Assembly: GCA_944381575.1 (NCBI GenBank)
Contig: CALWLS010000008.1
Location: 1 to 64,000, forward strand
Length of the DNA stretch: 64,000 bases
Direction: 5' to 3'
Source: an uncultured Lachnospiraceae bacterium
Lineage (GTDB): Bacteria; Bacillota; Clostridia; Lachnospirales; Lachnospiraceae
Shown here: positions 4,012-39,027 of the stretch, piece by piece
How positions within the stretch are numbered: the first letter of the stretch is position 1
How the letters are laid out: each line of letters opens with the position of its first letter
Notes under the pieces: generated by a model
Seen by the model: only the letters and a program-made list of their open reading frames with translations
The model's database searches: none
What the model was told of the DNA's origin: nothing
Made by a program: the position numbers and the translations under genes

Positions 4012-4029
4012 TTGCGAGGTGATTTATTA

Positions 4030-17161: not shown

Positions 17162-18064
17162 ATGATAGAGATCAAACAGCTGCAGTTTTTTGCGGCGTGC
17201 GTAGAGGAAGGAAGCTTCAGCAGGGCGGCGGATGTGCTGTATACATCGCAGCCTAATGTCAGCAAGGTCGTGAGAGAGCTGGAGCAGGAGATAGGGGTGG
17301 AGCTGTTTGAGCGCGGCGGCAGGGGTGTCGTTCCCACGGAGGACGGCAAGAACCTCTACCAGTACGCAAGGGACATACTCGCTAAGCAGGCAGGCATTAC
17401 CAACCTTATCAATAGCCACAGGCATGATCTCTTAAGGATAAGCTTTAATCACAGCCGTTCCATGGCTCAGGCGGTTTCTGACTTTCTGGAATCCAAGGAA
17501 TATCCGGTGGATATGAGGGTAAGGGAAGGCGTTACGGAAATGGTGGTGAGCGATGTGGAGCACTTCCGCAGCGATCTGGGTTTTACATTTATAGTAGAAA
17601 AACAGATGTCTGCGTTCCAGTATAACGTTGAACGCAGAGGACTCAAGATGAAGACGTTAAGGGTGGACCAGCTTCAGATAAGCATAGGAGAAAATGACAA
17701 ACTGGCACGGCTCAGGATGATAAAGCTGGACAAACTGTTAGGACACAGCTTTATAAGACACAGCGACGATTTCTTCTCCCTTGAGAATGGAGTCTGCCTT
17801 ATGGAGCCCAAGATGAAGCCCATCCTTGACAAGGCTGCCATGTCCAACAGCGTGCAGCTGGTCATAAATCTCATCAACAGCGGCATGTGCAATCTGAGTC
17901 TTCCGCCGTTTTATAATACAAAGCTGGCAGAGGGCGTGGTGCAGGTCATGATAGAGCCTGCCATAAATGTGCATTTCGTATGCATTTACAAATACGCTCC
18001 AATAGGAATTGCAAGGGAATTTATAGATCACATAAGGCGTCTTGACAGCGAGAGAAACCGGTGA
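17162..18064 (+). CDS. LysR-type transcriptional regulator
   Basis: Regulator of 300 aa. The N-terminal winged helix-turn-helix is clear (QLQFFAACVEEGSFSRAADV, then SQPNVSKVVRELEQEIGVEL), and a periplasmic-binding-like effector domain follows from about residue 90. ATG 17162 follows a CCGGAGTGG site. It sits between a MATE exporter and a threonine-dehydratase-like gene on the same strand. LysR proteins often control an adjacent gene, so either neighbour may be the target. The effector is unknown. Confidence 0.88.
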   Translation: MIEIKQLQFFAACVEEGSFSRAADVLYTSQPNVSKVVRELEQEIGVELFERGGRGVVPTEDGKNLYQYARDILAKQAGITNLINSHRHDLLRISFNHSRSMAQAVSDFLESKEYPVDMRVREGVTEMVVSDVEHFRSDLGFTFIVEKQMSAFQYNVERRGLKMKTLRVDQLQISIGENDKLARLRMIKLDKLLGHSFIRHSDDFFSLENGVCLMEPKMKPILDKAAMSNSVQLVINLINSGMCNLSLPPFYNTKLAEGVVQVMIEPAINVHFVCIYKYAPIGIAREFIDHIRRLDSERNR

Positions 18065-18176
18065 CGGAACCTGTACAGCAGGACTGGGCGTGTTTTATGA
18101 TAAATATCAGATCATAGCTGCATCAGCGTGATATCCATAAATTTAAAAATATAAAATATTGATCAATTACAGGGCT

Positions 18177-18204
18177 TTACAAATTGAGTAAAATGAGCTA
18201 ATAT
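18177..18204 (+). promoter_or_regulatory. candidate promoter of the dehydratase/OCD genes
   Basis: TTACAA (18177-18182), 16 bases, then TAATAT (18199-18204). The 309-base gap 18065-18373 holds this promoter and a downstream inverted repeat, and no other gene is seen. Confidence 0.45.
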
Positions 18205-18249
18205 CTGTTTAGATACTAAACTAATTAGAAACATGAGCTATAACAGATC

Positions 18250-18268
18250 GTTATACCGTGCGTATAAC
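18250..18268. promoter_or_regulatory. inverted repeat GTTATA-N7-TATAAC, possible operator
   Basis: A perfect 6-bp dyad with a 7-base spacer lies about 40 bases downstream of the candidate promoter, in the leader of the dehydratase gene. It could bind the upstream LysR protein or another regulator; nothing in the sequence decides this. Confidence 0.35.
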
Positions 18269-18373
18269 AAGCTGTGAGTATCACACAATGCAGTTTTAAT
18301 GTACGATAGATACCGTTAAGGGAGCTTTAAGCTCAAGGCAAAAGTATCTATGTATGAAAGAGGTATATTTACT

Positions 18374-19378
18374 ATGGCTGAGACTGCAAAGAAATCACCG
18401 CTTACACTTCAGGACATCAAGGATGCTCAGGTAAGGATCAAGCCTTACGTCAACCGTACTCCGCTCGTGAGAGTTGAGGATCTGGATGAGATGGTTGGAT
18501 GCCAGGTGTACTTCAAGGCTGAGATGCTTCAGAAGACAGGCGCATTTAAGGCAAGGGGAGCATTTAATAAGGTACTTACCCTTACGGACGAGGAGAGAAA
18601 GAAGGGAATAATCTTCAGCTCATCAGGAAACCACGCCGCTGCATGCGCTTATGTCGCAAAGAAGTTCGGAATGAAGGCATATGCCGTTATGCCGAGGGAT
18701 ACACCTAAGGGCAAGATCGAGAACTGTGAGAGGAGAGGCGGTATCTGCATTCTCTGGGACCGTGATTATCAGGCTCGTGTCAAGAAGGTGGCAGACGAGA
18801 TCAAGGAGCACGGATATACCCTCGTTCATGGATTTGATGATTATACGGTAATGGCAGGACAGGGAACCATCGGTCTTGAGATCATGGAGGACCTTCCTGA
18901 CGTTAAGACTGTTATAGCTCCTATCGGCGGAGGCGGACTCATGTCCGGTATAGCTACGGCAATAAAGGAGAGCGATCCTACCATCAGAGTTATCGGAGTT
19001 CAGGTAGCTGCCAGCTGCGGATATTATTTAAGCCGTCTTAACGGACGCCCTACCCGCATGACCTCACAGCCTTCCCTTGCTGACGGTATCGGATGCTCCT
19101 ATCCTACGGAGAACCCTTATCCTATCATCGACAAGTATGTGGATGAGATAGTTATAGTTACTGAGGATCATATAGCAGAGGCTGTAAAGTATATCGGTGA
19201 GTATGCCCACCTCGTGGCTGAGCCTACTTCAGCAGTCGTGCTCGCAGCACTCTTGGAGGGCAAGATCAAGACAGCTCCGGATGAAAAGGTTGCATGTGTG
19301 CTTACCTCAGGAAACTACGACATCGATCTCGTAGGAAAATTCTATAAGGATGAACATGTTGATCCTGTCGACGACTGA
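18374..19378 (+). CDS. threonine dehydratase-like PLP enzyme (IlvA/TdcB/EutB family)
   Basis: Fold-type II PLP enzyme of 334 aa, without the C-terminal ACT regulatory domain of biosynthetic IlvA. The PLP lysine is in TGAFKARGA (K59), the substrate loop is SSGNHA (82-87), and the phosphate-binding turn is GGGGLMSG (185-192). Possible activities include threonine deamination, hydroxyaspartate dehydration or an EutB-like role. ATG 18350 is in frame, but the AGAGGT site fits ATG 18374. Codon use is strongly biased, implying high expression. An ornithine-cyclodeaminase-like gene follows 112 bases later, echoing EutB/EutC and BhcB/BhcD gene pairs. Confidence 0.85.
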   Translation: MAETAKKSPLTLQDIKDAQVRIKPYVNRTPLVRVEDLDEMVGCQVYFKAEMLQKTGAFKARGAFNKVLTLTDEERKKGIIFSSSGNHAAACAYVAKKFGMKAYAVMPRDTPKGKIENCERRGGICILWDRDYQARVKKVADEIKEHGYTLVHGFDDYTVMAGQGTIGLEIMEDLPDVKTVIAPIGGGGLMSGIATAIKESDPTIRVIGVQVAASCGYYLSRLNGRPTRMTSQPSLADGIGCSYPTENPYPIIDKYVDEIVIVTEDHIAEAVKYIGEYAHLVAEPTSAVVLAALLEGKIKTAPDEKVACVLTSGNYDIDLVGKFYKDEHVDPVDD

Positions 19379-19490
19379 TGCGGCAGCTGAGGCATTTCAT
19401 TATAAAAACACTATATTATATAGGTAGAAATACCGACGCGGCTTTACCGCCGCGCCGGTATATTTGAGATTTTTAAGGAGGTAACTTCTG

Positions 19491-20483
19491 ATGAAAACTT
19501 TACTGCTCAGTAATGAGGACGTAGGAAAGGTAGTTGATCTTGACGAGATATATGAGGCCGTTAAGAACGGATATATCTCTCTTTATAACGGCAATGTGGT
19601 ACAGCCTGAGATACTGCATATCTATGAGCCTAACACCAAGAAGGGCTTTGATTATAAGTGCTGCCTTGATCTTGAGGCAGGATACTATTCAATGAAGTCA
19701 TCCTCAGGCGGATTTGAGGACAATGTCAAGATCGGACAGCTTCCGGGATTTAATCTTGTTTTCCTGTTTGACGCAAAGACCAGCGCATGCTCCTGCATCA
19801 TGGAGGGCAACTATATAAGGAATCTCCGTACGGCAGCAGGCGCAGCCATCGCCAATAACACATTTGCAAAGAAGGATGCTTCCTCCTACTTTGCTTTCGG
19901 AACAGGACGTATCGGCAAGGCTTCCTTAAGGGCTACCATGCGCGTAAGGGATATCAAGGACGTATACTGCTTCGGATGGCTTGAGGGCGAGAACGATGCG
20001 TTCATAGCTGAGATGTCCAAGGAGTATCCTGACGTTACCTTCCATTCCTGCGCTACTCCTGAGGAGGGAGCAAGGAACGCCGATATCATCGTATGTGTTA
20101 CCCTCGCAAGGAAGGGACCTGCCATCAAGAAGGAATGGTTAAAGCCTGGAACACATATCACCGAGATCGGAACGGATTCTCCTGGAAAGCAGGAGCTTGA
20201 CGTAAGCTGCTTTGACGGTACAAAGATCATCAACGACAGCATAGAGATGGCTTCTCTTTACGGAGATACTCATAACGCCATAGAGGCCGGAGTTATCACA
20301 AAGGACAACATCTATGGAGAGATCGGAGAGATCCTTGCAGGGGCTAAGCCTGGAAGGACAAATGACGAGGAGATCACCGTGTATGATACGGTAGGCCTTG
20401 GCGTACAGGATCTTGCCATGGGCGTTGCCGTATACAAGAAGGCGCTTAAGGAAGGCCTCGGAACAGAGTTCGAGTTCATCTGA
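19491..20483 (+). CDS. ornithine cyclodeaminase / mu-crystallin family protein
   Basis: NAD(P)-dependent enzyme family protein of 330 aa. The N-terminal dimerisation part and the Rossmann fold with FGTGRIGKA near residue 140 are visible, along with the family stretch ITEIGTDSPGKQELD. Family members include ornithine cyclodeaminase, alanine dehydrogenase, EutC of ectoine breakdown and iminosuccinate reductase BhcD. An AAGGAGGT site precedes ATG 19491. Codon use is biased like the upstream dehydratase-like gene, and the two are probably cotranscribed. The substrate cannot be assigned by eye. Confidence 0.85.
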   Translation: MKTLLLSNEDVGKVVDLDEIYEAVKNGYISLYNGNVVQPEILHIYEPNTKKGFDYKCCLDLEAGYYSMKSSSGGFEDNVKIGQLPGFNLVFLFDAKTSACSCIMEGNYIRNLRTAAGAAIANNTFAKKDASSYFAFGTGRIGKASLRATMRVRDIKDVYCFGWLEGENDAFIAEMSKEYPDVTFHSCATPEEGARNADIIVCVTLARKGPAIKKEWLKPGTHITEIGTDSPGKQELDVSCFDGTKIINDSIEMASLYGDTHNAIEAGVITKDNIYGEIGEILAGAKPGRTNDEEITVYDTVGLGVQDLAMGVAVYKKALKEGLGTEFEFI

Positions 20484-20654
20484 TAAAAGTTGCGCTTGAC
20501 TAACAATATAACAGTTTGTTAATATGCGCTCAGAAAGATTTGCACTGCATTTTAGACACTTTTAATAAGTATCATATCTACAGTACAAACTGAGCAGGCG
20601 GTGGCATATGCCATTAGCCGGGTCTTTTTTAAGACAGCGGACTTATAGTTTAAG

Positions 20655-20690
20655 GCCGCGGGACAGTAGTAGCTGTTCCGCGGCTTTATT
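20655..20690 (+). terminator. strong rho-independent terminator (first of a tandem pair)
   Basis: A 12-bp stem, gccgcgggacag/ctgttccgcggc, is followed by tttattttatttttt. A weaker hairpin with a T-run also lies just upstream (about 20599-20632). Confidence 0.85.
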
Positions 20691-20792: not shown

Positions 20793-21734
20793 ATGGCAGC
20801 ACAAAATGCAAACCTGTCAGAGCAGGAGAAGCAGAAGTTAGTTAACCAGTGTGCCTCTGTCGGCATATTCGGTAACGTTATTCTTACGGCCTTCAAGATG
20901 TACGCCGGTGTCGTTGGTAACTCAACGGCGATGGTAACGGACGCTATCCATTCTCTTTCAGACGTCCTTGCAACATTCATCGCATTTATCGGAGTTAAGA
21001 TATCCAAGAGAGGCGCCGACGCGTCCCATCCATACGGACATGAGAGATTCGAGTGCTTCGCGGCCATCATCGTAGGCGCCATTCTTACATTTGCCGGCGT
21101 TCACATCGGTATGGACTGCATAGAGAGACTTATGAATAAGTCATACCTTACTGCGGCTGCACCTGGAGTTATCGCCATCGTTGCAGCGGTAGTATCCATC
21201 GTTGTTAAAGAGGGTATGTACTGGTATACCATCCATATCGCCAACAGGATCAAATCCAGCGCCTTCAAGGCTGACGCATGGCACCACAGATCCGACGCCC
21301 TTTCATCCGTTGGATCACTTGCAGGTATCGTCCTTGCAAGAGTTGGCTTCCCGTTCATGGATATCGTTGCAGGTCTTATCATCTGTGCTATCATCATCTA
21401 CGTTGGACTTATCGAGATCATCAAGGACGCCGTTGATAAGCTCGTTGATAAGTCAGCTGAGCCTGAGGTTGAGCAGGAGATCCGCAGGATAGTTAAGGAG
21501 CACTGCGACAAGGAGAAGCTTGATGTAGGTATCGATGAGGTGCTTACAAGAAAGTTCGGCGAGAAGGTATTTGCTGACCTTGAGATCAACCTTGATGGAA
21601 ATATGAAGCTGCATGAGGCTCACGCCATCGCTGAAAAGGTGCATGACGCCATCGAGGATGAGTATCCTGAGATCAAGCACATAGCTGTGCATGTAAACCC
21701 TAAGGGATTCGATTATAAGATACCTAAGATGTAA
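20793..21734 (+). CDS. cation diffusion facilitator (CDF) exporter, probably Zn2+
   Basis: Membrane metal/proton antiporter of 313 aa with six helices and a C-terminal cytoplasmic ferredoxin-like domain. Aligned by eye to YiiP, the transport-site tetrad is H53-x3-D57 in helix 2 and H164-x3-D168 in helix 5. This HD-HD set is typical of Zn2+-selective CDFs such as ZitB, whereas DD-HD proteins also carry Cd2+. The conserved SHPYGHERFE loop is present. An AGGAGG site precedes ATG 20793. It is isolated by terminators on both sides and opens the metal-homeostasis region. Confidence 0.9.
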   Translation: MAAQNANLSEQEKQKLVNQCASVGIFGNVILTAFKMYAGVVGNSTAMVTDAIHSLSDVLATFIAFIGVKISKRGADASHPYGHERFECFAAIIVGAILTFAGVHIGMDCIERLMNKSYLTAAAPGVIAIVAAVVSIVVKEGMYWYTIHIANRIKSSAFKADAWHHRSDALSSVGSLAGIVLARVGFPFMDIVAGLIICAIIIYVGLIEIIKDAVDKLVDKSAEPEVEQEIRRIVKEHCDKEKLDVGIDEVLTRKFGEKVFADLEINLDGNMKLHEAHAIAEKVHDAIEDEYPEIKHIAVHVNPKGFDYKIPKM

Positions 21735-22022: not shown

Positions 22023-22045
22023 TAATCCCCCCTGAGGGGGTAATA
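22023..22045. promoter_or_regulatory. CsoR/RcnR-type G-tract operator
   Basis: A near-palindrome TAATCCCCCC-TGA-GGGGGTAATA lies directly downstream of a candidate -10 TAAAAT (22016-22021) and 23 bases before the P1B ATPase start. C/G-tracts flanked by A/T are the recognition type of CsoR/RcnR/InrS repressors, which respond to Cu(I), Ni or Co. A CsoR-family gene lies at 37331-37837. The G-run at 22057-22060 is the ribosome site. Confidence 0.7.
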
Positions 22046-22067: not shown

Positions 22068-23996
22068 ATGGCTGACAAGAAACAAACGAAAAAGTTATTC
22101 GGATTGGATCTTAACGTAATCTGGTATCCTCTGGTACTCGTGTTGCTTATCATAATCGGTCTCGTACTCGATTACATAATCAAACCGTCATGGATACCGA
22201 GAGTCACCAATTACGAAGGACATGACGTAGGAACCTTCCTCCTGATACCTCTCATTTTCGGAGGCTTCAGATGTACAAAGGATGCAGTCGAGGCTACGAT
22301 CAAGAAAAAGAAGGTCACTGCCGGAATGCTCGTAGTGCTTTCGCTCATAGGCTGTATTTACTGCGCTGAGTATGCATCAGGTGCCCTGGTTGCATTCATG
22401 ATGATCATAGGTGAGGTTCTTGAAGACATCACCATGATGAAGACACAGAACGCGGTAGCAGAGCTTGTAAAGCTGGTTCCGCACAAGTGCCGTAAGCTCG
22501 TGGACGGACAGTTCGTGGAGGTCTCCATCAAGAAGGTAAGAAAGGGAGACATTATCCAGGTCCAGACCGGTGAGAAGATAGCAGTCGATGGCGTCATCAC
22601 AAAGGGTAATGCAGCCATAAACGAGGCTTCCATAACCGGTGAGTCGATGCCTGTAGATAAGAAGGTAGGAGATGAGGTATTCGTTGGTACCTTAAATGAA
22701 AGCGGCGTTATCGAAGTCCAGACTGAAAAGCTCGGCGGCGACACAGTCTTAGGTAAGATCATCAACACCGTTAAGAGCGCCCAGGATCAGAAGGGTAACG
22801 CACAGAAGGTTGCGGATAAGTTCTCTGAGGTATTCCTTCCGCTCGTACTCCTTGTCTGCGTGATCGTATGGTTCGCAACACACAACCTCATAAGAGTCAT
22901 GTCAGTGCTCGTTATTGCCTGCCCTTGTGCTCTTATGCTCGCAACACCTACAGTCGTTATAGCAGCAGTCGGAAACGCAGCTAAAAAGGGTATCCTCGTT
23001 AAGGGCGGAGACGCCATCGAGGCATCAGCAAAGATCAACGCTATCTGCTTTGATAAGACAGGTACCATCACAAAGGGCGTTCCTGCAGTTACAGAGAAGT
23101 ACATCGCCCCTGGCGTAAGCGAGGAGGAGTACTACTCAGCAATAGCCATCGCAGAGAAGAACTCAAGCCACCCTCTCGGCAAGGCTATCATGAAATATGT
23201 AAACGCATCGGGTAAGATCGATGTTTCCGCAATCCCTAACGCAGAGTATGAGATGCTTGTAGGTCGAGGCGTAAGGACCAGTCACGACGGAAATGTTTAC
23301 GAAGTATCCAATAAGAAGTGCCTTGCAGACGCTAAGGAAGGCGTTACGGATGAGGTAAATGCATTCATAAAGAATAACGAGAGTAAGGGACGCACCACGA
23401 TGCTCGTAGTCAAGAACGCAAAGGTTCTTGGAGGCATATCAGTTGCCGATGAGATCCGTGAGAACATCAAGACTACCATGCAGCAGTTCAAGAAGCTCGG
23501 CATAGAGCACATAGTAATGCTTACCGGTGATAATGAGTACACCGCAAAGGCTATCTGCGATGAGGCAGGCATCAGCGAATTTAAGGCAAACCTCCTTCCG
23601 GAGCAGAAGCTTGACGCCATCAAGGATCTCCAGGCCAAGGGCTATAAGGTAGCGATGGTCGGAGACGGCGTAAACGACGCACCTGCACTGGTACTTGCAG
23701 ACCTTGGTATAGCGATGGGCGGAGCAGGAACAGACGTAGCCATCGAGTCCTCAAAGCTTACGCTTATGTCGGATAACATAGCAATGCTTCCAACGGCCTT
23801 CGCACTCTGCCAGAGAGCATACCACATGATCCTGCAGAACATTATAATCTTCGCAGTTATCGTAAACGTAGTCGGAGTGTTCCTTTCATCACTCGGCTTC
23901 CTGAACCCGATAGCAGCGGCAATAGTACACAACGCTTCTTCCATCTTCGTTGTACTTAACTCCTCAAGAATGCTTACTTGGAAGTACAAGGGATAA
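22068..23996 (+). CDS. P1B-type heavy-metal-transporting ATPase
   Basis: Metal-exporting P-type ATPase of 642 aa without an N-terminal HMA domain. Visible are the actuator motif TGES (190-193), the metal-site CPC (285-287) in a membrane helix, the phosphorylation site DKTGT (D329), the SSHPLGKA motif of the nucleotide-binding domain, and the hinge GDGVNDAP. The last helix reads HNASSIFVVLNSSRML, which matches neither the classical Cu (MSxSS) nor Zn (DxG) signature that I know, so selectivity is open. The CsoR-type operator in front argues for Cu, Ni or Co. A GAAAGGG site precedes ATG 22068. Codon bias is high. Confidence 0.9.
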   Translation: MADKKQTKKLFGLDLNVIWYPLVLVLLIIIGLVLDYIIKPSWIPRVTNYEGHDVGTFLLIPLIFGGFRCTKDAVEATIKKKKVTAGMLVVLSLIGCIYCAEYASGALVAFMMIIGEVLEDITMMKTQNAVAELVKLVPHKCRKLVDGQFVEVSIKKVRKGDIIQVQTGEKIAVDGVITKGNAAINEASITGESMPVDKKVGDEVFVGTLNESGVIEVQTEKLGGDTVLGKIINTVKSAQDQKGNAQKVADKFSEVFLPLVLLVCVIVWFATHNLIRVMSVLVIACPCALMLATPTVVIAAVGNAAKKGILVKGGDAIEASAKINAICFDKTGTITKGVPAVTEKYIAPGVSEEEYYSAIAIAEKNSSHPLGKAIMKYVNASGKIDVSAIPNAEYEMLVGRGVRTSHDGNVYEVSNKKCLADAKEGVTDEVNAFIKNNESKGRTTMLVVKNAKVLGGISVADEIRENIKTTMQQFKKLGIEHIVMLTGDNEYTAKAICDEAGISEFKANLLPEQKLDAIKDLQAKGYKVAMVGDGVNDAPALVLADLGIAMGGAGTDVAIESSKLTLMSDNIAMLPTAFALCQRAYHMILQNIIIFAVIVNVVGVFLSSLGFLNPIAAAIVHNASSIFVVLNSSRMLTWKYKG

Positions 23997-24099: not shown

Positions 24100-24192
24100 A
24101 TGCATGAGGGAAAACACGGAATCTTAGACGGACTTGAGGATCTCGACGATATCTTCGGTGACGGCGACGATGACGATGATGAGGACGAATAA
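24100..24192 (+). CDS. tiny acidic peptide, copy 1 (30 aa), unrecognised
   Basis: A 30-residue reading frame begins at ATG 24100, 6 bases after AAAGGAGGA. The peptide starts MHEGKHGILDGLEDLDDIF and ends in GDGDDDDDEDE; about half the residues are Asp or Glu. I do not recognise a family. A second copy at 24483 differs at three synonymous sites in its first seven codons and is otherwise identical to residue 23, so the protein sequence appears to be conserved by selection. It follows the P1B ATPase by 103 bases and ends in its own terminator. A metal buffer or chaperone role is only a guess from charge and neighbours. Confidence 0.75.
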   Translation: MHEGKHGILDGLEDLDDIFGDGDDDDDEDE

Positions 24193-24215
24193 CTGATAAG
24201 TTTTTTGTCAGAATG

Positions 24216-24249
24216 AAAAGGGGCTGCCCGCTAAGGACGGCTCCTTTTT
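24216..24249 (+). terminator. rho-independent terminator after acidic peptide copy 1
   Basis: An 11-pair stem, aaaaggggctg/cggctcctttt, is followed by a T-run. It separates copy 1 from copy 2. Confidence 0.8.
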
Positions 24250-24359
24250 GTATACAAAAACTTCGTCTGCATATCACAGTTAGCGTATACAAATCAATAG
24301 AGTTAGAGTATTGTAACTACATAAATAATTTTTAAGTATCTTATTAAAATTTTATAAAT

Positions 24360-24369
24360 GTTCAAATGT
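24360..24369. promoter_or_regulatory. GTTCAAATGT element upstream of acidic peptide copy 2
   Basis: The 10-mer GTTCAAATGT recurs at 32356 in front of the HMA protein gene. Here it lies 24 bases upstream of the -35 of copy 2. The GTTCA half-site resembles pieces of ArsR/SmtB operators. Shared control is inferred. Confidence 0.35.
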
Positions 24370-24393
24370 CCTATCAAAATCAGACAGAAAATA

Positions 24394-24422
24394 TTGATAA
24401 ATCAGTCGTTTTATTGTAATAT
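24394..24422 (+). promoter_or_regulatory. promoter of acidic peptide copy 2
   Basis: TTGATA (24394-24399), 17 bases, TAATAT (24417-24422). This is good spacing and near-consensus, and it gives copy 2 its own transcript start near 24430. The gap 24250-24393 holds nothing else clear. Confidence 0.6.
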
Positions 24423-24482
24423 TTATACAACTAAATTGCAGGCAAACAATAGCAGAAATCATTTTAAGAGGAGGATGTTACT

Positions 24483-24575
24483 ATGCATGAAGGAAAACAT
24501 GGTATCTTAGACGGACTTGAGGATCTCGACGATATCTTCGGTGACGGCGACGACGATGAGGATGAGGACGAATAA
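24483..24575 (+). CDS. tiny acidic peptide, copy 2 (30 aa), unrecognised
   Basis: Paralogue of the peptide at 24100, also 30 aa. It has the same MHEGKHGILDGL start and DLDDIFGDGDDD core, and its tail ends EDEDE. ATG 24483 follows AGAGGAGGA with proper spacing and lies downstream of its own promoter. Compared with copy 1, changes in codons 3, 6 and 7 are all synonymous, and only the poly-acidic tail differs in residues, Asp for Glu. It is followed by a hairpin and then a diverged third copy. No family is recognised and no export signal or membrane segment is seen. Confidence 0.75.
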   Translation: MHEGKHGILDGLEDLDDIFGDGDDDEDEDE

Positions 24576-24601
24576 GATCCGAGACCGTTTTAAGCGTACT
24601 G

Positions 24602-24630
24602 GCTGCTGTTAATACAGCAGCGTAATTTTT
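24602..24630 (+). terminator. hairpin between acidic peptide copies 2 and 3, possible attenuator
   Basis: Perfect 8-bp stem gctgctgt/acagcagc with a 4-base loop, followed by gtaattttt. Read-through into copy 3 and the ABC importer is plausible. Confidence 0.55.
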
Positions 24631-24647
24631 GAAAGGGGACGTTCATT

Positions 24648-24758
24648 ATGTCTGAATGCGGATGCAAGATCCTTGACGGATATCTTAAATGCATCGAGGA
24701 TCTTGACAATGTCTTTGATGACGATGAGGATGAAGCTGACGGAGACGATGAGCAGTAA
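24648..24758 (+). CDS. acidic peptide, diverged copy 3 with cysteines (36 aa)
   Basis: A 36-residue reading frame begins at ATG 24648 after GAAAGGGG. The peptide starts MSECGCKILDGYLKCIEDLD and its tail is rich in Asp and Glu (DDDEDEADGDDEQ). The core ILDG, EDLD and following hydrophobic-Phe pair align with copies 1 and 2, so it belongs to the same family. It uniquely has three cysteines (C4, C6, C15), an arrangement that could bind soft metals. No terminator lies between it and the lipoprotein gene at 24844, so it may be the first gene of the ABC importer operon. The function is unknown. Confidence 0.68.
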   Translation: MSECGCKILDGYLKCIEDLDNVFDDDEDEADGDDEQ

Positions 24759-24843: not shown

Positions 24844-26418
24844 TTGAAGAAGTTTTTAGCAATTGCTCTCACAGCTGCACTTGCAGCAGGTATCACAGCC
24901 TGCGGAGGCTCGGACAGCGCATCTACCGGATCATCTACAGGAACTTCTACCGGGGATGCAGCAACAGGAACAACAGAGACAGCCGAGCCGGTTGCCGGCG
25001 GCATATTCAGAACTGTTGAGTCTAACCCTTATGCCAGCATTGATGTACATAAGGATTATTATTCATGGCACACACAGTTCTATGGAATGTCACAGTCACT
25101 CTTCCGTATAGAGGACGACATGACGATAAGTCCTTGGCTTGCTGACAGCTATACTACTGAAGGAAACTCAATGACCATAACCCTTAAGGACGGGGTATGC
25201 TTCTCCAACGGTGAGCCTCTCACGGCTGACATGGTTAAGAGAAACTTAGAGAGGGTCGCAGAGGTCAACACAAGATTCACATATGTGGCTGACTGGACCA
25301 TCGAGACTCCTGACGAGAAGACAATAGTTATCACAACGCCGGAGCTTTACCCTACACTCATCAACGACCTTGCAACGGCTGAGTTCGGTATGGTGGATCT
25401 GGACAACACCACGGACTTTGATAACGCTCCTATCTGCACGGGACCATTCGTTATAGAGGAGTTCGTTCCTGACGGAGATGTTACCGTTGCCAAGAACGAG
25501 AACTACTGGGGCGGCGATGTAATGCTTGACGGAGCAGTATTCTACTACATGGGCGATGAGGAGTCCAAGATGCTGGCTATGCAGAACGGAGAGATCGACG
25601 GATATGTAGATATCTCACCTGCATCAAAGGAAGTCTATGCAATGTCTCCTGACATGTATAATGTTACAACCATTAATACAGAAAGACGTGCATATGCACT
25701 TATCAACTCAGCAAGGCTCAGTGATAACATCAGGGAGGCTCTCGTACTTGGTATAGATAAGGCAGCCATCGAGGCTTATACAGAGGGTATCCTTAAAAAT
25801 GCAGAGGGATTCTTCACATCTGGAACATATTACGGCGGAGTTCAGGCTCCTACCTATGATCCTGAGGGAGCAAAGGCAGCTATCGAGGCAGACGGTTATA
25901 CATTTAACGACGCTACCGGCTTCTACGAGAAGGACGGACAGCCCCTTACCATAACAATCTCAACATATGCTAAGCGTTCACTTGATACCCTTGCCATCCT
26001 CATGCAGGAGCAGTACAAGGCTATAGGTATCAACGCTCAGATCAAGCTTGAGGACAACCCTGACTCCACATACATGTCAAATCTTGACTATGATATCGGA
26101 ATGTATGTAAGTATTACTGATAAGGCCGGTGAGCCATTCACCTTCCTGAATCAGGTAATGACAGGTCAGTGGCTCGATGTCTGCGGATTCGGTAATGCTG
26201 AGACAGACGCTCTTATAGATCAGCTCAGATTTGAAACAGATGAAACTAAGAAGGCTGAGCTTGCTGACGAGATCATGACTGATATCTATGACTCCAACTG
26301 CTATCTTGTACTCGGCCAGTATACAAAGTCAACGGCTATCAGAGCAGGTGCAGGCGGACTCGGAGAGACCAGCCCTCAGCAGTTCTACGCAATAGATGAG
26401 AATTCTTTCGCTAACTGA
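24844..26418 (+). CDS. family-5 solute-binding lipoprotein of the second ABC importer
   Basis: Extracytoplasmic binding lipoprotein, 524 aa, with a signal peptide ending ITAC (lipidated C20), a Ser/Thr/Gly-rich tether to about residue 55 and a complete SBP_bac_5 fold. It shares with the orphan binding protein at 30334 a near N-terminal motif of the form Asp-x-His-Lys-x-Tyr-x-x-Trp and the stretch LKDGVCFSNG. Start is TTG 24844 after TTAGGAGGA. Family-5 proteins bind peptides, nickel complexes or opine-type metallophores. The surrounding metal genes make a metal-chelate ligand attractive but unproven. Confidence 0.88.
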   Translation: MKKFLAIALTAALAAGITACGGSDSASTGSSTGTSTGDAATGTTETAEPVAGGIFRTVESNPYASIDVHKDYYSWHTQFYGMSQSLFRIEDDMTISPWLADSYTTEGNSMTITLKDGVCFSNGEPLTADMVKRNLERVAEVNTRFTYVADWTIETPDEKTIVITTPELYPTLINDLATAEFGMVDLDNTTDFDNAPICTGPFVIEEFVPDGDVTVAKNENYWGGDVMLDGAVFYYMGDEESKMLAMQNGEIDGYVDISPASKEVYAMSPDMYNVTTINTERRAYALINSARLSDNIREALVLGIDKAAIEAYTEGILKNAEGFFTSGTYYGGVQAPTYDPEGAKAAIEADGYTFNDATGFYEKDGQPLTITISTYAKRSLDTLAILMQEQYKAIGINAQIKLEDNPDSTYMSNLDYDIGMYVSITDKAGEPFTFLNQVMTGQWLDVCGFGNAETDALIDQLRFETDETKKAELADEIMTDIYDSNCYLVLGQYTKSTAIRAGAGGLGETSPQQFYAIDENSFAN

Positions 26419-26528: not shown

Positions 26529-27458
26529 GTGTTAAAATTTACGATCAGAAGAATAATAAATCTGATACCGGTGTTACTTATCCTTACATTCGGTGTATTC
26601 ACCCTTCTGTATCTTACCCCGGGTGATCCGGCTCTTATGAAGCTCACGGCGCAGGGTACTGCCGTAACTGATGAGCTCCTGGAGCTTGAGAGGGAGAGAA
26701 TGGGACTTAATCAGCCATTCCTTACGAGATACATTAACTGGATACTTGGTATCCTTCACGGAAATTTCGGTAATTCATATGCTGATGATATGCCGATACT
26801 CCCTAAGCTTTTAGATGCGCTCGGATATACTATGGTCCTTGCCATAGCAAGTACGGTCGTATCAGTAGTAGTTGCCATCCCTCTTGGAGTTCTTACAGCT
26901 ATCAAGAAGGATTCCATATTGGATAACATAGTAAGAGTTTTCGCATTCATTGGTAACGCGATGCCTAACTTCCTTATATCTCTCTTGCTTATGTACCTGT
27001 TCTGCATCCAGCTGAGGATATTCCCGGTCATCGCGAAAGGTTCCGTACAGGGTCTGTTCCTACCTACTCTGTCGCTGGCGATCCCTATGGCCTCCAAGTT
27101 CATGAGACAGACGAGAGCCGACGTGCTCAGCCAGCTTGATGAAGAGTATGTTATAGGTATGCATGCGAGAGGCGTAAAGGAAAGAACGATACTTTTCAAA
27201 AACGTCCTGCATAACGCCCTCGGCGGAGTTATTACGATAGTTTCCCTTCAGATAAGAGTCCTTATCGGAGGAAGTATCGTTATTGAGACGATATTCCGTT
27301 GGCCTGGAATCGGATCTCTCATGATGGATTCCATCTCAGCCAGAGACTATCCGGTCGTTCAGGGAGCTGTTCTTATTCTGGCTACGCTGCAGGTTCTTGT
27401 CAATCTTGCAACAGATATAAGCTACTGCATCATTGATAAGCGTATCGAGCTTGAGTAA
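26529..27458 (+). CDS. ABC importer permease, DppB/NikB type
   Basis: First permease of the second importer, 309 aa. It has the N-terminal anchor followed by LTPGDPALMKL (the conserved PGDP turn of this family), a BPD_transp_1 core, and the EAA loop around GMHARGVKERTILFKNVLHN. The start is GTG 26529 after AACGGAG. It lies after the hairpin that follows the binding-protein gene and 14 bases ahead of its partner permease. It forms the heterodimeric channel with the next protein. Confidence 0.88.
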   Translation: MLKFTIRRIINLIPVLLILTFGVFTLLYLTPGDPALMKLTAQGTAVTDELLELERERMGLNQPFLTRYINWILGILHGNFGNSYADDMPILPKLLDALGYTMVLAIASTVVSVVVAIPLGVLTAIKKDSILDNIVRVFAFIGNAMPNFLISLLLMYLFCIQLRIFPVIAKGSVQGLFLPTLSLAIPMASKFMRQTRADVLSQLDEEYVIGMHARGVKERTILFKNVLHNALGGVITIVSLQIRVLIGGSIVIETIFRWPGIGSLMMDSISARDYPVVQGAVLILATLQVLVNLATDISYCIIDKRIELE

Positions 27459-27472
27459 GGAGGTACTTACAG

Positions 27473-28336
27473 ATGGCAGAATCAAAAAAGATAGATAAAT
27501 CCAAGCTTTCCAAAAAGCAGTTAAAAAAGCTCAGATTAAAGAGAAAGACATACATCCTTGGAGGCATAGTTGCATTGCTTCTTATAGCCAGCCTTATAGC
27601 TCCTATGCTTACCCCGTGGGATCCATATGCAACGGATCCGCTTAACATGAGAGCGGCACCAAGCGCCGAGCATATCTTCGGTACTGACTACCTTGGACGT
27701 GACGTATTTTCACGAGTACTTTCCGGAGCAAGGACGTCAATATTCGCAACACTGGTGCTGGTTATCATTTCCTTCGTCATAGGATCTGCGATCGGTATCA
27801 TATGCGGATACTATGGAGGATTTGTAGATAACATTCTCATGCGTATCACTGATATCCTGCTTTCACTGCCTCAGCTCGTGCTTGCAGTCGCAGTCGCAGG
27901 TATGATGGGTGGATCACTTACAAACGCGCTTATAGCTATAGGAATAACCAGCTGGACGTCCTATGCGAGACTGGCTCGAAGCCACACCATGAGGATCAAA
28001 CAGCTGCCGTACATAGACTCGGTACGAATGACAGGAAGTGGAGACCTGAATATACTTTTAAGGCACGTCTTCCCTAACCTTATCGGCTCAATGCTTGTAA
28101 ATGCAACGCTTGAGATCGGTACTACGATGCTTAGTATAGCAGGTCTTTCATTCCTCGGACTCGGAGTTGCGCCTCCTGCAGCTGAGTGGGGATCAATGGT
28201 TTCCGAAGGAAGAGCATATCTCCAGCTTGCACCATGGACAGTTTTCGCACCGGCAGCATCAATCCTCGTTGCGGTTATGATCTTCAACTACTTTGGTGAG
28301 TGCGTATGCGATCTTGCAAATATGAATGAGGTATAA
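27473..28336 (+). CDS. ABC importer permease, DppC/NikC type
   Basis: Second permease, 287 aa, with a basic N-terminus (many Lys in the first 25 residues), one anchor helix, then the BPD_transp_1 domain. The motif FGTDYLGRDVFSRVLSGART is the usual DppC landmark, and GLGVAPPAAEWGSM marks the C-terminal part. ATG 27473 follows AAGGAGGT. The next gene starts three bases after its stop, so the operon is tightly packed. Confidence 0.88.
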   Translation: MAESKKIDKSKLSKKQLKKLRLKRKTYILGGIVALLLIASLIAPMLTPWDPYATDPLNMRAAPSAEHIFGTDYLGRDVFSRVLSGARTSIFATLVLVIISFVIGSAIGIICGYYGGFVDNILMRITDILLSLPQLVLAVAVAGMMGGSLTNALIAIGITSWTSYARLARSHTMRIKQLPYIDSVRMTGSGDLNILLRHVFPNLIGSMLVNATLEIGTTMLSIAGLSFLGLGVAPPAAEWGSMVSEGRAYLQLAPWTVFAPAASILVAVMIFNYFGECVCDLANMNEV

Positions 28337-28338
28337 TT

Positions 28339-29280
28339 ATGGCAGAGAATATTCTTGAAATAAACAACCTCACGGTTACATACGGACAGTTTAAAATTAT
28401 TACGGAGGTTTCCTTCAAGGTAAAGCCTAAGGAGATCGTTTGTATAGCAGGTGAGTCAGGCTGTGGAAAGTCTACCCTCATTAAGGCGGTACTCGGACTT
28501 AAGCAGCTCGGCGCACAGATAGAAGAGGGAAGCGTTATCCTTGACGGAAGAGATATTACAAGGCTCGGAGTCGAGGAGAGAAGGCAGATACTTGGAACAG
28601 AGATCGGATACGTTCCTCAGAATACAAGAGGTTCTTTCAATAATATCAGATCATATGAGGTTCAGTACAAGGAAACGATGCTGGCACATGGGCTTCCATT
28701 CGTTAAGGCCGACGCCATAGACGTCTTCAAGAAGCTCAACTTCCCGGATGCGGATACAATCCTTGAATATCAGCCTTGGGAGATGTCAGGCGGTATGAAC
28801 CAGAGGATGGCCATCGGCCTTGCGGTGCTTCAGAAGCCTAAGCTCATGCTTGCTGACGAGGCAACATCAGTCCTCGACGTTACCTCACAGAAGGAGGTTA
28901 TCGAGGAGCTTTCAAAGCTGAGGGATGAACTTGGCTGGTCGATCCTCTTCATTACCCATAATCTCGGCGTTGCTTCCCATATTGCAGATAAGCTCGGCGT
29001 CATGTATGCAGGCCGTATGGTAGAGTACGGAGCTATAAGGAAGGTTCTTGATCATCCGATCCATCCTTATACGAGGGCTCTGCTTGCAGCTATACCTGGC
29101 AAGGACAGAAAGCTTCCTCAGGGACTTGAGGGAAGACCACCGTTAGACGGAGCCGAGTGGACAGGCTGCAACTTCGTGCCAAGATGCAGGTTTGCATGCG
29201 AGGCCTGCAAGACTAAGAAGTACCAGCTTATCGAGGTTGAGCCGGATCACTTTGCAAGCTGTTCAGAAGGGATGGAATAA
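28339..29280 (+). CDS. ABC importer ATPase, DppD/NikD type
   Basis: First ATPase of the second importer, 313 aa. Walker [10 protein letters not shown], signature MSGGMNQRM, Walker B LMLADEATSVLD (Ala and Val where DEPTSALD is common), H-loop LFITHN, and a C-terminal Cys region (CNFVPRCRFACEAC) that may carry a cluster are visible. ATG 28339 begins 3 bases after the preceding stop. It pairs with the shorter ATPase that follows. Confidence 0.88.
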   Translation: MAENILEINNLTVTYGQFKIITEVSFKVKPKEIVCIAGESGCGKSTLIKAVLGLKQLGAQIEEGSVILDGRDITRLGVEERRQILGTEIGYVPQNTRGSFNNIRSYEVQYKETMLAHGLPFVKADAIDVFKKLNFPDADTILEYQPWEMSGGMNQRMAIGLAVLQKPKLMLADEATSVLDVTSQKEVIEELSKLRDELGWSILFITHNLGVASHIADKLGVMYAGRMVEYGAIRKVLDHPIHPYTRALLAAIPGKDRKLPQGLEGRPPLDGAEWTGCNFVPRCRFACEACKTKKYQLIEVEPDHFASCSEGME

Positions 29281-29283
29281 AAT

Positions 29284-30045
29284 ATGAGTAGTGCACCATT
29301 ACTGGAAGTAAGGGACGTTGCCAAGCATTACGGTAGAGGTAAGAAAAGGCACGAAGTCCTTACGGATCTCAATATATCGTTAAATGAAGGTGAAGTACTC
29401 GGTATCATAGGCGAGTCAGGCTGCGGAAAGTCTGTACTTCTTAACCTTATCTCCTGCCTTGAGCCTGTATCGGCCGGCCAGCTGTTTTTTAAGGGTGAGG
29501 AGTATACAGGCAAGAAGCCTAAGGATGTATGCCGCTGGTTCCAGGTTATATTCCAGGACTCTGAGGCTGCCTTCGACCCTAAGATGACCATACGTCAGTC
29601 CATGCATGAGAACTTAAGGCTTCTTTCAGGTGATTCCAAGGATGCTGATGCCAAGATAGAGGCCATGATAGAGATCATGGGACTTAACCCGGCACTTGCA
29701 GACAGATATCCGAGACAGCTCTCAGGTGGACAGGTACAGCGTATGTCCATTGCCCGTTCACTTGTTACGGAGCCTAACCTGATACTCTGCGATGAGATGA
29801 CATCAGCTCTTGACGTATCGGCTCAGGCGATGATACTTCAGTACCTTTACAAGCTTCGTCAGAAGAGAGGACTTACCATGATATTCGTATCACACGACAT
29901 GGCTCTCTGCTCGACGTTCTGCGACAGGATGGCTATCATGAAGGACGGAAAGATCGTTGAGATCGGAACTCCGGAGCAGATCATGGATCATCCTCAGCAT
30001 GAATATACAAAGCTTCTGCTTGATGCTGTACTTTATGTAAAGTAA
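29284..30045 (+). CDS. ABC importer ATPase, DppF/NikE type
   Basis: Second ATPase, 253 aa. It is shorter than the DppF at 5009 because it ends soon after the ABC domain (about residue 245) and lacks the C-terminal Cys extension, as in NikE. Walker [10 protein letters not shown], signature LSGGQVQRM, Walker B LILCDEMTSALD (Met for the usual Pro) and H-loop FVSHD are intact. It begins 4 bases after the previous stop and is the last gene of the operon, with a terminator at 30064. Confidence 0.88.
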   Translation: MSSAPLLEVRDVAKHYGRGKKRHEVLTDLNISLNEGEVLGIIGESGCGKSVLLNLISCLEPVSAGQLFFKGEEYTGKKPKDVCRWFQVIFQDSEAAFDPKMTIRQSMHENLRLLSGDSKDADAKIEAMIEIMGLNPALADRYPRQLSGGQVQRMSIARSLVTEPNLILCDEMTSALDVSAQAMILQYLYKLRQKRGLTMIFVSHDMALCSTFCDRMAIMKDGKIVEIGTPEQIMDHPQHEYTKLLLDAVLYVK

Positions 30046-32643: not shown

Positions 32644-32680
32644 TTTTTAGGGATATCCGATCTTAATCTTTAAAACTGAA

Positions 32681-32723: not shown

Positions 32724-32791
32724 AACGCATTTTTAGGCTGGGGACGGCTCTGCCGCCCGTAATTAAGGCCCGTTCCGGGAGGAAAGGACAG

Positions 32792-35336: not shown

Positions 35337-36065
35337 ATGGCATCAAAGAAGAAGGGCTGTATTGTTATCAAGAAGAATAATAAGCTCAAGGTTACATACT
35401 CACACCGTAACTCAGAGATGAGACTTGTGGGAAAGAGAGTTGTTAAGTGGATCAAGACCGCCGGCATCGATGCCATCAGCGATTATTATGATAAAGTACA
35501 GTTAGTCAAGGAAGAGGATCCTATGACAGATGAGCAGAAGGAGTCCTACAAGAAGTATATCCCTGAGCAGCTCTGGCCTGAGATTCCTAACATGACATGG
35601 CCTGAGGCTCTTGCATGGACAAAGGACGCTGCAGCTCCGCTTAAGGATTTCTATCCGTATATGGTAGACTATTCCGGATTCGTAGGAGCATGGGCCAACA
35701 GATGGAGATATATCATAGACCTCGATAACAATCTGTTCATCGTTGTCAGAGCAGGACTTGAGATGCTCTTAAGATATGACGATGATTATCCGAAGGATGT
35801 GGACTGGATGGCTAAGGTAGCTCATACCGAGATAGGCAGATTCCCTCTTGACAATATACCTGAGGACTGGATAGAGCAGTGCGACAAATACTGGGGAAGC
35901 CTTATGATCATAGCCGTGGATTACCAGCACAACAAGGAGGCCAAATACTCCGAGGAAGTACAGGAACAGGGCGTTGCAGGATATAATCCTGCGGATACCG
36001 ACTGGGAAAAGATCAAGTTCTTTTATGGTCAGAACAGCTATAATAAGATGATTTCGGATATGTGA
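35337..36065 (+). CDS. unrecognised 242-aa cytosolic protein
   Basis: I do not recognise a family. The first 15 residues are Lys-rich (KKKGCIVIKKNNK). The body is rich in aromatic and acidic residues (MTWPEALAWTKD, GFVGAWANRWRYIIDLDNN, VDWMAKVAHTE), looks soluble, and has no signal peptide or membrane helix. ATG 35337 follows AGGAGG with good spacing, and codon use is strongly biased, so it is probably well expressed. It stands alone between the ArsR gene and a terminator at 36119. A role in metal stress is suggested only by its neighbours. Confidence 0.8.
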   Translation: MASKKKGCIVIKKNNKLKVTYSHRNSEMRLVGKRVVKWIKTAGIDAISDYYDKVQLVKEEDPMTDEQKESYKKYIPEQLWPEIPNMTWPEALAWTKDAAAPLKDFYPYMVDYSGFVGAWANRWRYIIDLDNNLFIVVRAGLEMLLRYDDDYPKDVDWMAKVAHTEIGRFPLDNIPEDWIEQCDKYWGSLMIIAVDYQHNKEAKYSEEVQEQGVAGYNPADTDWEKIKFFYGQNSYNKMISDM

Positions 36066-37330: not shown

Positions 37331-37837
37331 TTATCTGATGAATTTATCTATGGCGTCGTTGAGGTAGTCGATCTCTTTCTTGTGCTCGACCGGATCGGTG
37401 GCCTCCGTAACGCTGCTCAGGCATTCATTGATGTGATTTCTAAGTATCAGCTTTCCAAGGTTGTTGATGGAAGCCTGTACCGCTGAGATCTGTATGAGGA
37501 TCTCAGAGCAGTCCCGTTTATCCTCGATCATCTTTTTGATCGAGGTTACATGTCCTATGATTATGGATATACGCCTCTGAAGCTGCTTATATTCATCCGC
37601 AGAATGGTGGTGTGTATGCGTGTGCACGGTGCCATCCTTATGGGTGTGAGTGCTCTCATGTATATATTCATTCCCTTTTGAGGAAGAGAGTTCTTTATCA
37701 GTCCCGGCGTCAGCCTTGATAATTTCCCTGGTATTGTCACAGGCATTCACACCGGTAGTGGCCTTAGCTGCGGCCCTCTTAGTTTCGGGGTCCTTTGGTG
37801 CTTTTGTTTTACTGTTTTCCGTTGATCTCCTGGTCAT
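37331..37837 (-). CDS. CsoR/RcnR-family metal-sensing repressor with His-rich extension
   Basis: Four-helix repressor of 168 aa. The core starts near residue 83 (YKQLQRRISIIIGHV) and holds C110, H135 and C139 with the 25- and 4-residue spacing of the Cu(I) ligands of CsoR. Unusually, about 80 residues precede it: a basic, low-complexity part, then a His-rich segment at 60-78 (HESTHTHKDGTVHTHTHHHS) that could bind Ni, Co, Cu or Zn. TTG 37843 is possible, but the CGAGGT site fits ATG 37837. The only G-tract operator seen is at 22023, before the P1B ATPase. Confidence 0.88.
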   Translation of the reverse strand: MTRRSTENSKTKAPKDPETKRAAAKATTGVNACDNTREIIKADAGTDKELSSSKGNEYIHESTHTHKDGTVHTHTHHHSADEYKQLQRRISIIIGHVTSIKKMIEDKRDCSEILIQISAVQASINNLGKLILRNHINECLSSVTEATDPVEHKKEIDYLNDAIDKFIR

Positions 37838-37989
37838 GATCAAACCTCGCGTAAGTGTGTTTTATCATGCATTTGTGAAAAATGTATATAATATTGTGCT
37901 GCTCATGATGATATTTTAGTATATAATTAACTGATTAACAATATCGCAAAGGCATTTTAGCGTTTCCAAAATGGAAGTGAATCACCTAT

Positions 37990-39027
37990 ATGGATAGTTT
38001 AACCGAATGTATAACCGGATGGCTTAAGGAACTGATAGAGTTTAATACAACGATGGATGAGGGCAGTACAGATGACTGTGCGGCCTTTATTGACGGCGTT
38101 TTTAATGGAAATGGAGTCTCATCTGTCATCATACGGCCAAAAGGTTGTGGGAGCATGGTTTTTGCTGAGGTCAGGGGCAGACGCAGGGAGGCGTTATTGC
38201 TGCACGCGCATCTTGATACGGCGCCCTATTACAGAGAGTTAAACTGGCGTTTTTCGCCGGACAGGGCGACATTTATAAAAAATAAGATCTGCGGAAGGGG
38301 CGCGGTGGATTGTAAGGGGCAGGCCGCTGTATGGATGAAGCTCATGTGCGATGCGGCGAAGACTGCCGGTAGCATGGAGTATTCCCTCAGGGCTGTTTTT
38401 ACCTGTGATGAGGAAAATGGAGGCGAAAAGGGCCTTAAACGACTTATGGAAGAAAACCGCAGCCTGTTTGATGATGTGTTTCTTGTGATAGGAGAGGGCG
38501 GCGGCTTCAGCTTTCCTTACGGCGGCAGGATATGCTATACCTTTCAGACCGGTGAACGTGAGGATATGGAGGGCGGACCGGAGGTTGACGATAAGACAGA
38601 AGCTGATATAGAAAAGGTGATCTCCCTTGGGATCAAAAAGGGGTATTACTCACCAATGCTTTTAGACTACATTAAAAATTCCGGGAAGGAGATAAAAAGG
38701 CTGGATACATATCCGCTGTATGCCGGGATGGAGGAGTATTTTGTACGAGCTCCATATTCAGACGTGTACGGGAGGTTTGGAAAGCTATTTGAGGAAGCGC
38801 TTAAAGCTTCCGTCCCGGAGGCGATACTGATGCCGGTCATAACGCCGGGCTACAGTGATAACCGGTATTTCAGGAGGACCGGGATACCGGTCATAGGATT
38901 TTTCCCATTTGATGTAAAAGATCATATATGGATGCATACGGCCAATGAATATATAAGCCTCGACACGCTTAAACTTGCTTATGAGGTGATGGGAAGGGTA
39001 GTAGGGCGTATATGCATGGGAGCTTAG
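37990..39027 (+). CDS. M20 family metallopeptidase
   Basis: Zinc-dependent amidohydrolase/peptidase of 345 aa of the ArgE/DapE/CPG2 group. Metal ligands and catalytic residues are visible: HLDTAP (H74, D76), GRGAVDCKG (bridging D107), DEENGG (E141 base, E142 ligand) and a C-terminal His in MHTANEYIS. It is shorter than the usual 400-480 aa, mostly because the dimerisation (lid) domain between about residues 175 and 265 is reduced. The start ATG 37990 has a modest GGAAGTGA site. It stands alone; the substrate is unknown. Confidence 0.85.
   Translation: MDSLTECITGWLKELIEFNTTMDEGSTDDCAAFIDGVFNGNGVSSVIIRPKGCGSMVFAEVRGRRREALLLHAHLDTAPYYRELNWRFSPDRATFIKNKICGRGAVDCKGQAAVWMKLMCDAAKTAGSMEYSLRAVFTCDEENGGEKGLKRLMEENRSLFDDVFLVIGEGGGFSFPYGGRICYTFQTGEREDMEGGPEVDDKTEADIEKVISLGIKKGYYSPMLLDYIKNSGKEIKRLDTYPLYAGMEEYFVRAPYSDVYGRFGKLFEEALKASVPEAILMPVITPGYSDNRYFRRTGIPVIGFFPFDVKDHIWMHTANEYISLDTLKLAYEVMGRVVGRICMGA

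Follow-up and report, generated by a model that had tools for sequence, protein, structure and literature searches.

Between a gene for a P1B-type metal ATPase and the genes of a family-5 ABC importer, the DNA of an uncultured Lachnospiraceae bacterium holds three open reading frames encoding 30, 30 and 36 amino acids, and the question raised by this locus is whether such frames are genes and, if so, what they contribute beside a metal pump. The stretch of DNA analysed, here called the window, is 64,000 nucleotides long. The original prediction regarded the frames as paralogous genes, with chance frames as the alternative, and proposed that their products act inside the cell as a metal buffer, chaperone or regulator.

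Three short genes and their family

The frames were recovered with the coordinates, ATG starts and product lengths (30, 30 and 36 aa) that had been predicted:

24100..24192, + strand: peptide 1, MHEGKHGILDGLEDLDDIFGDGDDDDDEDE, 30 aa, ATG start; the stop codon of the ATPase gene lies 103 nt upstream
24483..24575, + strand: peptide 2, 30 aa, ATG start; a second copy with a single Asp/Glu change relative to peptide 1
24648..24758, + strand: peptide 3, MSECGCKILDGYLKCIEDLDNVFDDDEDEADGDDEQ, 36 aa, ATG start; a probable divergent paralogue

Good ribosome sites had been claimed for all three, and this holds for the first two (AAAGGAGG and GAGGAGG) while the third is preceded by a weaker, Shine-Dalgarno-like AAAGGGG. 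Promoter-like sites were not in excess between 20400 and 25000 (5 against 7.9 in shuffled sequence). Peptides 1 and 2 are near-identical 30-mers, MHEGKHGILDGLEDLDDIFG followed by an Asp/Glu tail, and their genes differ at 6 of 90 nucleotides, five of these differences being synonymous and one causing the Asp/Glu change. The 60-nt flanks of the two genes are unrelated (ungapped identity 35% upstream and 25% downstream). Peptide 3 retains the ILDG...EDLD..F of peptides 1 and 2, and its MSECGCK aligns without gaps to MHEGKHG, so that Ser2, Cys4 and Cys6 stand in place of the His2, Gly4 and His6 of the family. Its alignment score with peptide 1 was equalled by 2 of 20,000 composition-preserving shuffles, and by none of 20,000 when the acidic tail was left out. 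Among the 25 genomes of the genus peptide 3 is known only from its own; no homologue was found in the 24 congeners, where the four other matches (E 0.24-0.45) lie inside frames of 190-851 aa. Peptide 3 appears to be a diverged paralogue that carries Cys close to its N-terminus.

The check proposed with the prediction was a search for homologues beyond this locus, and such homologues were found in 15 other genomes. A search with peptide 1 detected it in 5 of 61 genomes, its own counted, and a profile search of the genus gave strong matches in the same genome and in four of the 24 congeners, after 12 weaker rows (E 0.02-0.85) had been dropped before counting; one further row from another search (E 0.88) was likewise excluded. 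A DNA pattern scan of a species-genome collection yielded 124 pattern stretches and, from these, 10 confirmed loci. In wider samples the peptide was present in 4 of 392 genomes of the order (own included) and in 2 of 391 of the class, namely the window's own and G690, three weak matches in the class sample being dropped (E 5e-4 to 6e-3; frames of 438-458 aa with residues 1-10 uncovered in each). In the phylum sample it was present only in its own genome (1 of 398), and the family is therefore rare and patchy. Three genomes of these searches (G173, G264 and G347) appear identical with those of the public loci L016, L018 and L013, so that 16 genomes are counted: that of the window, four congeners, G690 from the same class, and ten public records. 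Nine of the latter are Clostridia/Bacillota and one is a bin labelled Spirochaetes, in which the peptide lies on a 5.9-kb contig and mis-binning is possible.

Selection was assessed on 19 distinct cores. Over codons 8-20 pS was 0.865 and pN 0.139, a ratio of 0.161, with pN below pS in 170 of 171 pairs. Over all 20 codons the ratio was 0.105 (pN below pS in 171 of 171 pairs), a figure biased downwards, since the MHEGKHG DNA pattern used to gather the cores fixes codons 1-7 in protein. With either figure selection acts at the protein level, and the head of the peptide is under purifying selection. The ratio for codons 8-20 and the homologues in 15 further genomes rule out chance frames, and the prediction that these frames are genes is borne out.

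The prediction also knew of no family like this. Scans of nine peptides matched no Pfam or NCBIfam model at its cut-off, and the three window peptides matched no model of either library at E<=1. In Pfam eight of the nine peptides had no match at E<=1 and the ninth, from L012, had only a sub-cut-off match to EF-1_beta_acid (E 0.018). In NCBIfam the His-rich L019 peptide weakly matched a nickel/cobalt efflux transporter (E 0.037) and UreE (E 0.04), both far below cut-off, which we take as a resemblance of His runs. Searches of open-access literature for the motif and for small metal partners of P1B ATPases gave no description of the peptides, the PacL paper alone surfacing. Genes this short are likely missed by standard annotation. 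Among viral contigs the peptide profile gave 600 pattern stretches and no confirmed relative, which disfavours a phage origin; a plasmid origin was likewise set aside, since all 761 plasmid records matching the window ATPase (E<=1e-100) were below 60% identity.

Residues M1-G7, D10, D14 and F19 are invariant in 15 of 15 aligned rows, two truncated rows and the L021 fusion described below among them. In the ten public loci the pattern used for the search is partly responsible for the invariance of MHEGKHG, but the block is also present in eight genomes reached without demanding it (G001, G015, G023, G024, G690 and G173, G264 and G347, the last three being the genomes shared with public loci). 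The block begins at residue 1 in each peptide: in L015 and L016 an in-frame upstream start exists and a ribosome-like site appears to favour the MHEG start, and in L009 the start is either MMHEG or MHEG. Two MHEGKHG copies each occur in the window, L016 and L018. The head helix has a modestly unusual hydrophobic moment, equalled in 283 and 331 of 20,000 shuffles.

The peptides are 29-71 aa long, mostly 30-50 aa, and differ chiefly behind the head. The acidic tail had been stressed as a hallmark, but the tail turned out to be the variable part. In the genus of the window, peptide 3 aside, 8-11 of its 9-13 residues are acidic, and these tails consist of Asp/Glu, some with Gly and three ending in one or two Lys. 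Elsewhere the tail is His-rich (17 His in L019 and 12 in L020) or carries CxC together with His (L012, L014 and L015), and in G690 CxC occurs as NCNC. L013, L016, L017 and L018 have KKKKSFLGF-type C-terminal ends, the basic-aromatic variant KKKKSFLGFGKK of some relatives, and the tails of L013, L016a and L017 contain neither His nor Cys. Net charge is -13 to -15 in 11 of the 19 peptides listed and -4 to -7 in the other 8. The Asp/Glu tails of the genus are expected to be weaker ligands for Ni or Zn than His or Cys. In agreement with the prediction, the sequences show no hydrophobic signal.

The partner ATPase and the surrounding genes

Both predicted neighbours, the P1B ATPase and the family-5 solute-binding protein, were confirmed. 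The genes discussed in this section are:

20793..21734, + strand: CDF cation efflux protein, a neighbouring metal gene preceded by a NiCo riboswitch at 20580-20668 (68 bits)
22068..23996, + strand: P1B-type metal ATPase, 642 aa, with CPC, HN near the C-terminus and no HMA domain ('P1B6-like' features)
24844..26418, + strand: family-5 solute-binding lipoprotein, for which the closest model in NCBIfam is Opp5A_nikA (229 bits, cut-off 600)
26529..30045, + strand: ABC importer genes, permease-like at 26529-27458 and 27473-28336 and ATPase-like at 28339-29280 and 29284-30045, which we take to be permeases and ATPases from gene order
35337..36065, + strand: 242-aa protein, whose L021 homologue bears the MHEGKHG module N-terminally
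37990..39027, + strand: M20-family peptidase, recurrent in the cluster and named from a scan of its L013 homologue

Pfam and NCBIfam scans found no HMA domain in the window ATPase. Its CPC (C285-P286-C287) and HN (H621-N622) are invariant in 11 of 11 aligned peptide-linked ATPases, and the ten others are 56-85% identical to it and have similarly short N-termini. Boudehen et al. (PMC9374683) call CtpC 'P1B6-like' for the CPC and HN pair, and by this motif pair the window ATPase may be assigned to the same class.

Fourteen of the 16 peptide genomes yielded this ATPase too, near the peptide every time. In the order sample of 392 genomes it was present at E<=1e-180 in exactly the four peptide genomes, neither gene occurring alone anywhere; the three carriers besides the window's genome belong to one family. 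In the genus sample it was present in 4 of 25 genomes, all of them peptide-bearing, the three others having copies 75-85% identical to that of the window; this count leaves out a second ATPase of the window's own genome (39% identical). The peptide was present in those four and in G015, a genome that is 59% complete and in which only 76 nt separate the start of the peptide from a contig end. Of 12 further genomes, selected as carriers of the peptide, 10 had the ATPase, and it was missing in G015 and G1189. The latter, the genome of L021, has no such ATPase at E<=1e-150 and there the peptide module is fused to another protein. Across the two samples searched for both genes, which share the window's own genome, no genome has the ATPase without the peptide, and the numbers are small. 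Among 226 relatives of G690 only G690 itself has the ATPase. Conserved coding genes with a constrained head and variable tails thus occur with one ATPase subfamily in these sequences, and on this basis the family is one of real, uncatalogued small proteins, tied to that pump subfamily in the genomes sampled.

The arrangement of the two genes varies. The peptide follows the ATPase in the window, G001, G023, G024, L013, L015-L018 and G690, precedes it in L014, L020 and L019, and is divergent from it in L012, while in L021 the head is fused to a homologue of the 242-aa protein. Where it precedes, it lies 9 nt upstream in L014 and 71 nt upstream in L020, and in L019, should the ATG at 814 be the start of the ATPase, the two genes overlap by 8 nt. 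Such variation in placement and strand with respect to the ATPase disfavours a leader peptide or attenuator.

Whether the ATPase/importer neighbourhood recurs was a further check proposed with the prediction. The ATPase part of it recurs, whereas the importer was seen only in the genus and, in part, in G690. It follows the peptide in the window and in the four congeners (L008-L011). At the G690 locus (L049), from another family, the two importer ATPases and a partial permease are co-stranded with the 242-aa gene, the ATPase, the M20 peptidase and the peptide. In L012-L021 no matches to the solute-binding protein or permeases were seen by tblastn, several of these loci being short. The survey compared 18 window proteins with 15 loci by tblastn and its counts are, since several loci are short, lower bounds. 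The M20 peptidase was found in at least 9 of the 15 loci (L012-L018, L021 and L049) and the 242-aa protein in at least 7 (L009, L013, L016, L017, L018, L021 and L049), both in addition to the window.

Since a homologue of the 242-aa protein can carry the head, as in L021, it is suggested that this protein acts at the same site. Homologues of about 224-242 aa sharing KKGS..FIKN..Y(C/S)HRN lie at 5251-5928 in L013, 5245-5919 in L017 and 6001-6813 in L021. The L013 and L021 copies had no Pfam match above cut-off and no NCBIfam match, and the window copy matched phrog_30528 in PHROGs (E 1.2e-7), a family without assigned function. The predicted structure of the L021 fusion has a mean pLDDT of 64, and of about 24 over residues 1-20, which makes it uninformative on the peptide part. 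It matched nothing in the PDB at E<=0.001 and had five matches at that threshold in a viral structure library, all without a named function.

Several other genes accompany the cluster. LysR regulator, threonine-dehydratase-like and ornithine-cyclodeaminase-like genes are found with the pump in several genomes, lying at 17162-20483 and 36269-37180 in the window, and dehydratase-like and ornithine-cyclodeaminase-like genes occur in L008, L009, L010, L012 and L017. In L008 two ornithine-cyclodeaminase-like genes (1420-2409 and 3650-4645, the second named from its similar start) flank a dehydratase-like gene. Behind the importer, positions 32425-35195 of the window encode an HMA protein on its own, another P1B ATPase, for which Cd/Zn-type models scored best, and a regulator that is ArsR-like by appearance; with these genes the metal-homeostasis island of the window spans about 18 kb.

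Regulator, operator and candidate metal

The NiCo riboswitch, the only one between 14000 and 36000, lies 3.4 kb upstream of the peptides and precedes the CDF gene, and none was found at the gathering threshold in 14 related loci. A link between riboswitch and peptides was therefore rejected. Two other features bear on regulation:

22024..22042, no strand assigned: operator-like palindrome AATCCCCCCTGAGGGGGTA, of the CsoR-family type 2 form; the ATPase start lies 25 nt on
37331..37843, - strand: CsoR/RcnR-family repressor with C-H-C ligands, a His-rich N-terminal region and no second-shell Tyr; start codon uncertain

A CsoR-family gene is present in the window and in 6 of the 15 related loci (L012, L013, L016, L018, L020 and L049). 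Its C112, H137 and C141 are invariant in 7 of 7 sequences, and the residue before the first Cys is Asp (6) or Glu (1), never Tyr. According to Foster et al. (PMC4235346), the second-shell Tyr appears predictive of Cu(I) selectivity, and the Ni(II) sensor InrS combines C-H-C with several N-terminal His. On that rule, Asp or Glu in place of the Tyr would make the neighbouring repressors Ni-type rather than Cu(I)-type sensors. With C-H-C, extra N-terminal His and no second-shell Tyr, the CsoR-family neighbours can be described as having InrS-like ligands.

Of the 14 ATPase loci, 10 have a WAWCCCC-N5-GGGGRTA palindrome ahead of the ATPase or peptide (window, L009, L010, L012, L014-L018 and L020). 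Looser versions occur in L013 and, before the 242-aa gene, in L049, and none was found in L008 or L019. With at most one mismatch the window contains 1 match against 0.06 expected, for a pattern picked post hoc from the sites. With a four-base spacer the pattern occurs in the window about as often as expected by chance (3 against 2.89), and the five-base spacer fits. The palindrome has the type-2 operator form of CsoR as described in PMC3902906. L015 has the operator-like site, and a search of its genome gave no CsoR-family gene. Taken from these sequence features, Ni(II) is the likeliest metal, followed by Co(II) or Zn(II).

A proposed accessory subunit of the pump

Homologues and the recurring ATPase neighbourhood make an intracellular role in metal handling, as originally proposed, the best-supported reading. 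We consider it probable that the peptides are dedicated accessory metal-handling subunits of the CPC/HN ATPase, acting as a soluble mini metallochaperone or scaffold; their expression, metal binding and docking on the pump are what we infer. Excess metal would probably release the CsoR-family repressor with its InrS-like ligands, and pump and peptide would then be made together. The constant head, made up of MHEGKHG and, behind it, an acidic amphipathic helix (D10, D14 and F19), would dock at the cytosolic face of the pump, and its N-terminal amine, His2 and His6 may themselves bind a metal. The tail would gather metal ions and pass them to the pump entry site, replacing the missing N-terminal metal-binding domain; either the tail or the N-terminal His pair could bring metal to the pump entrance. 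In some relatives the basic-aromatic C-terminus could tether the peptide to the membrane, and peptide 3, with Ser2, Cys4 and Cys6, would be a thiol version. One may speculate, more tentatively, on a narrower form of this proposal, in which the peptide is a stand-alone, membrane-free unit some 30 residues long, with its free N-terminus (Met-His-x3-His, or the Cys version) as the metal site, an acidic helix that fits into the pump where an N-terminal domain is lacking, and an exchangeable tail that tunes metal choice or membrane contact; this form is possible but rather doubtful.

The main rival is a stabilising or regulatory ATPase subunit that handles no metal, its tails being spacers or solubility tags. 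It would account for a head that is conserved while tail chemistry varies freely, and for those tails that have neither His nor Cys, but several tails are His-rich or bear CxC, and every strong profile match retains His2 and His6, which were not demanded there (in the public loci they were selected by the pattern); we hold this rival to be unlikely. Less likely still is a metal buffer or storage peptide, comparable to His-rich nickel stores, that belongs to the regulon and never contacts the pump. The His-rich tails of L019 and L020 and the presence of MHEGKHG twice in the window, in L016 and in L018 would suit such a store, yet buffering alone needs no constant head, tails of Asp/Glu would be expected to store metal poorly, and the peptide co-occurs with one ATPase subfamily in the samples.

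An acidic DNA mimic that displaces the CsoR-family repressor from its G-tract operator is suggested by the strongly negative charge of 11 of the 19 peptides and by the CsoR genes sharing the locus in the window and in 6 of 15 related loci. Such an antirepressor would leave the His and CxC tails unexplained, 8 of the 19 peptides are far less charged (-4 to -7), and the L015 genome has the operator-like site with no CsoR-family gene found, all of which makes it very improbable. Short genes in two or three copies at some loci also recall secreted or modified (RiPP-like) peptides, a reading to which we give hardly any credence, given that the sequences lack a hydrophobic signal and that neither a maturase nor a peptide exporter was recognised in the scanned part of the recurring neighbours.

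Known systems provide partial parallels for the favoured role as an accessory metal-handling subunit. P1B ATPases are served by CopZ/Atx1-type HMA metallochaperones and by N-terminal HMA domains. The peptide would resemble CopZ/Atx1 in being a dedicated metal donor to the adjoining pump, but the scanned peptides have no HMA match and no MxCxxC and are mostly 30-50 aa long. Proteins of the Hpn type are His-rich nickel stores, and the tails of L019 and L020 are likewise His-rich; unlike Hpn, the peptides have a constant acidic head, many have few or no His in the tail, and they are tied to one ATPase subfamily. In Escherichia coli the small protein MntS is made under metal scarcity and may inhibit the exporter MntP, according to PMC4361602. 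By that description the peptides would be alike in being small and intracellular and in influencing metal delivery and perhaps an exporter, whereas the repressor-type operator found here suggests induction by metal excess.

The closest analogy is with PacL. PMC9374683 and PMC13043812 describe PacL1, PacL2 and PacL3 (DUF1490), which pair with CtpC, CtpG and CtpV in Mycobacterium tuberculosis, and DUF6110 'PacL-like' proteins found mainly in Firmicutes. In those descriptions PacL is likewise a small protein encoded beside a P1B ATPase (CtpC having CPC and HN), likewise a proposed chaperone or scaffold, and likewise equipped with a ligand-bearing tail, the DLHDHDH of the disordered PacL1 tail recalling the His/Asp-rich tails of L019 and L020. 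His- or CxC-bearing tails occur in part of the peptide family and may correspond to the C-terminal metal-binding motif of PacL. In contrast, none of the nine peptides scanned against Pfam matches DUF1490 or DUF6110, no helix-length hydrophobic stretch or Glu/Ala repeat is seen when the sequences are read by eye, and the peptides, at 29-71 aa, have an MHEGKHG head of their own. As they have neither the PacL sequence family nor its transmembrane domain and Glu/Ala repeats, the peptides are kept apart from PacL, and the best reading is that they are functional analogues of the PacL of CtpC outside its sequence families.

If the narrower form of the proposal, with its N-terminal metal site, is true, the peptides would be a new class of P-type-ATPase partner, and no smaller protein dedicated to supplying a metal pump might exist. 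Tails that differ in nature (acidic, His-rich, CxC-bearing or basic-aromatic) on a constant head offer a ready test of docking versus metal choice. P1B pumps without a built-in metal-binding domain raise the question of what donates their metal; the PacL proteins are part of the mycobacterial answer, and the peptide family suggests a separate, far smaller solution in Clostridia.
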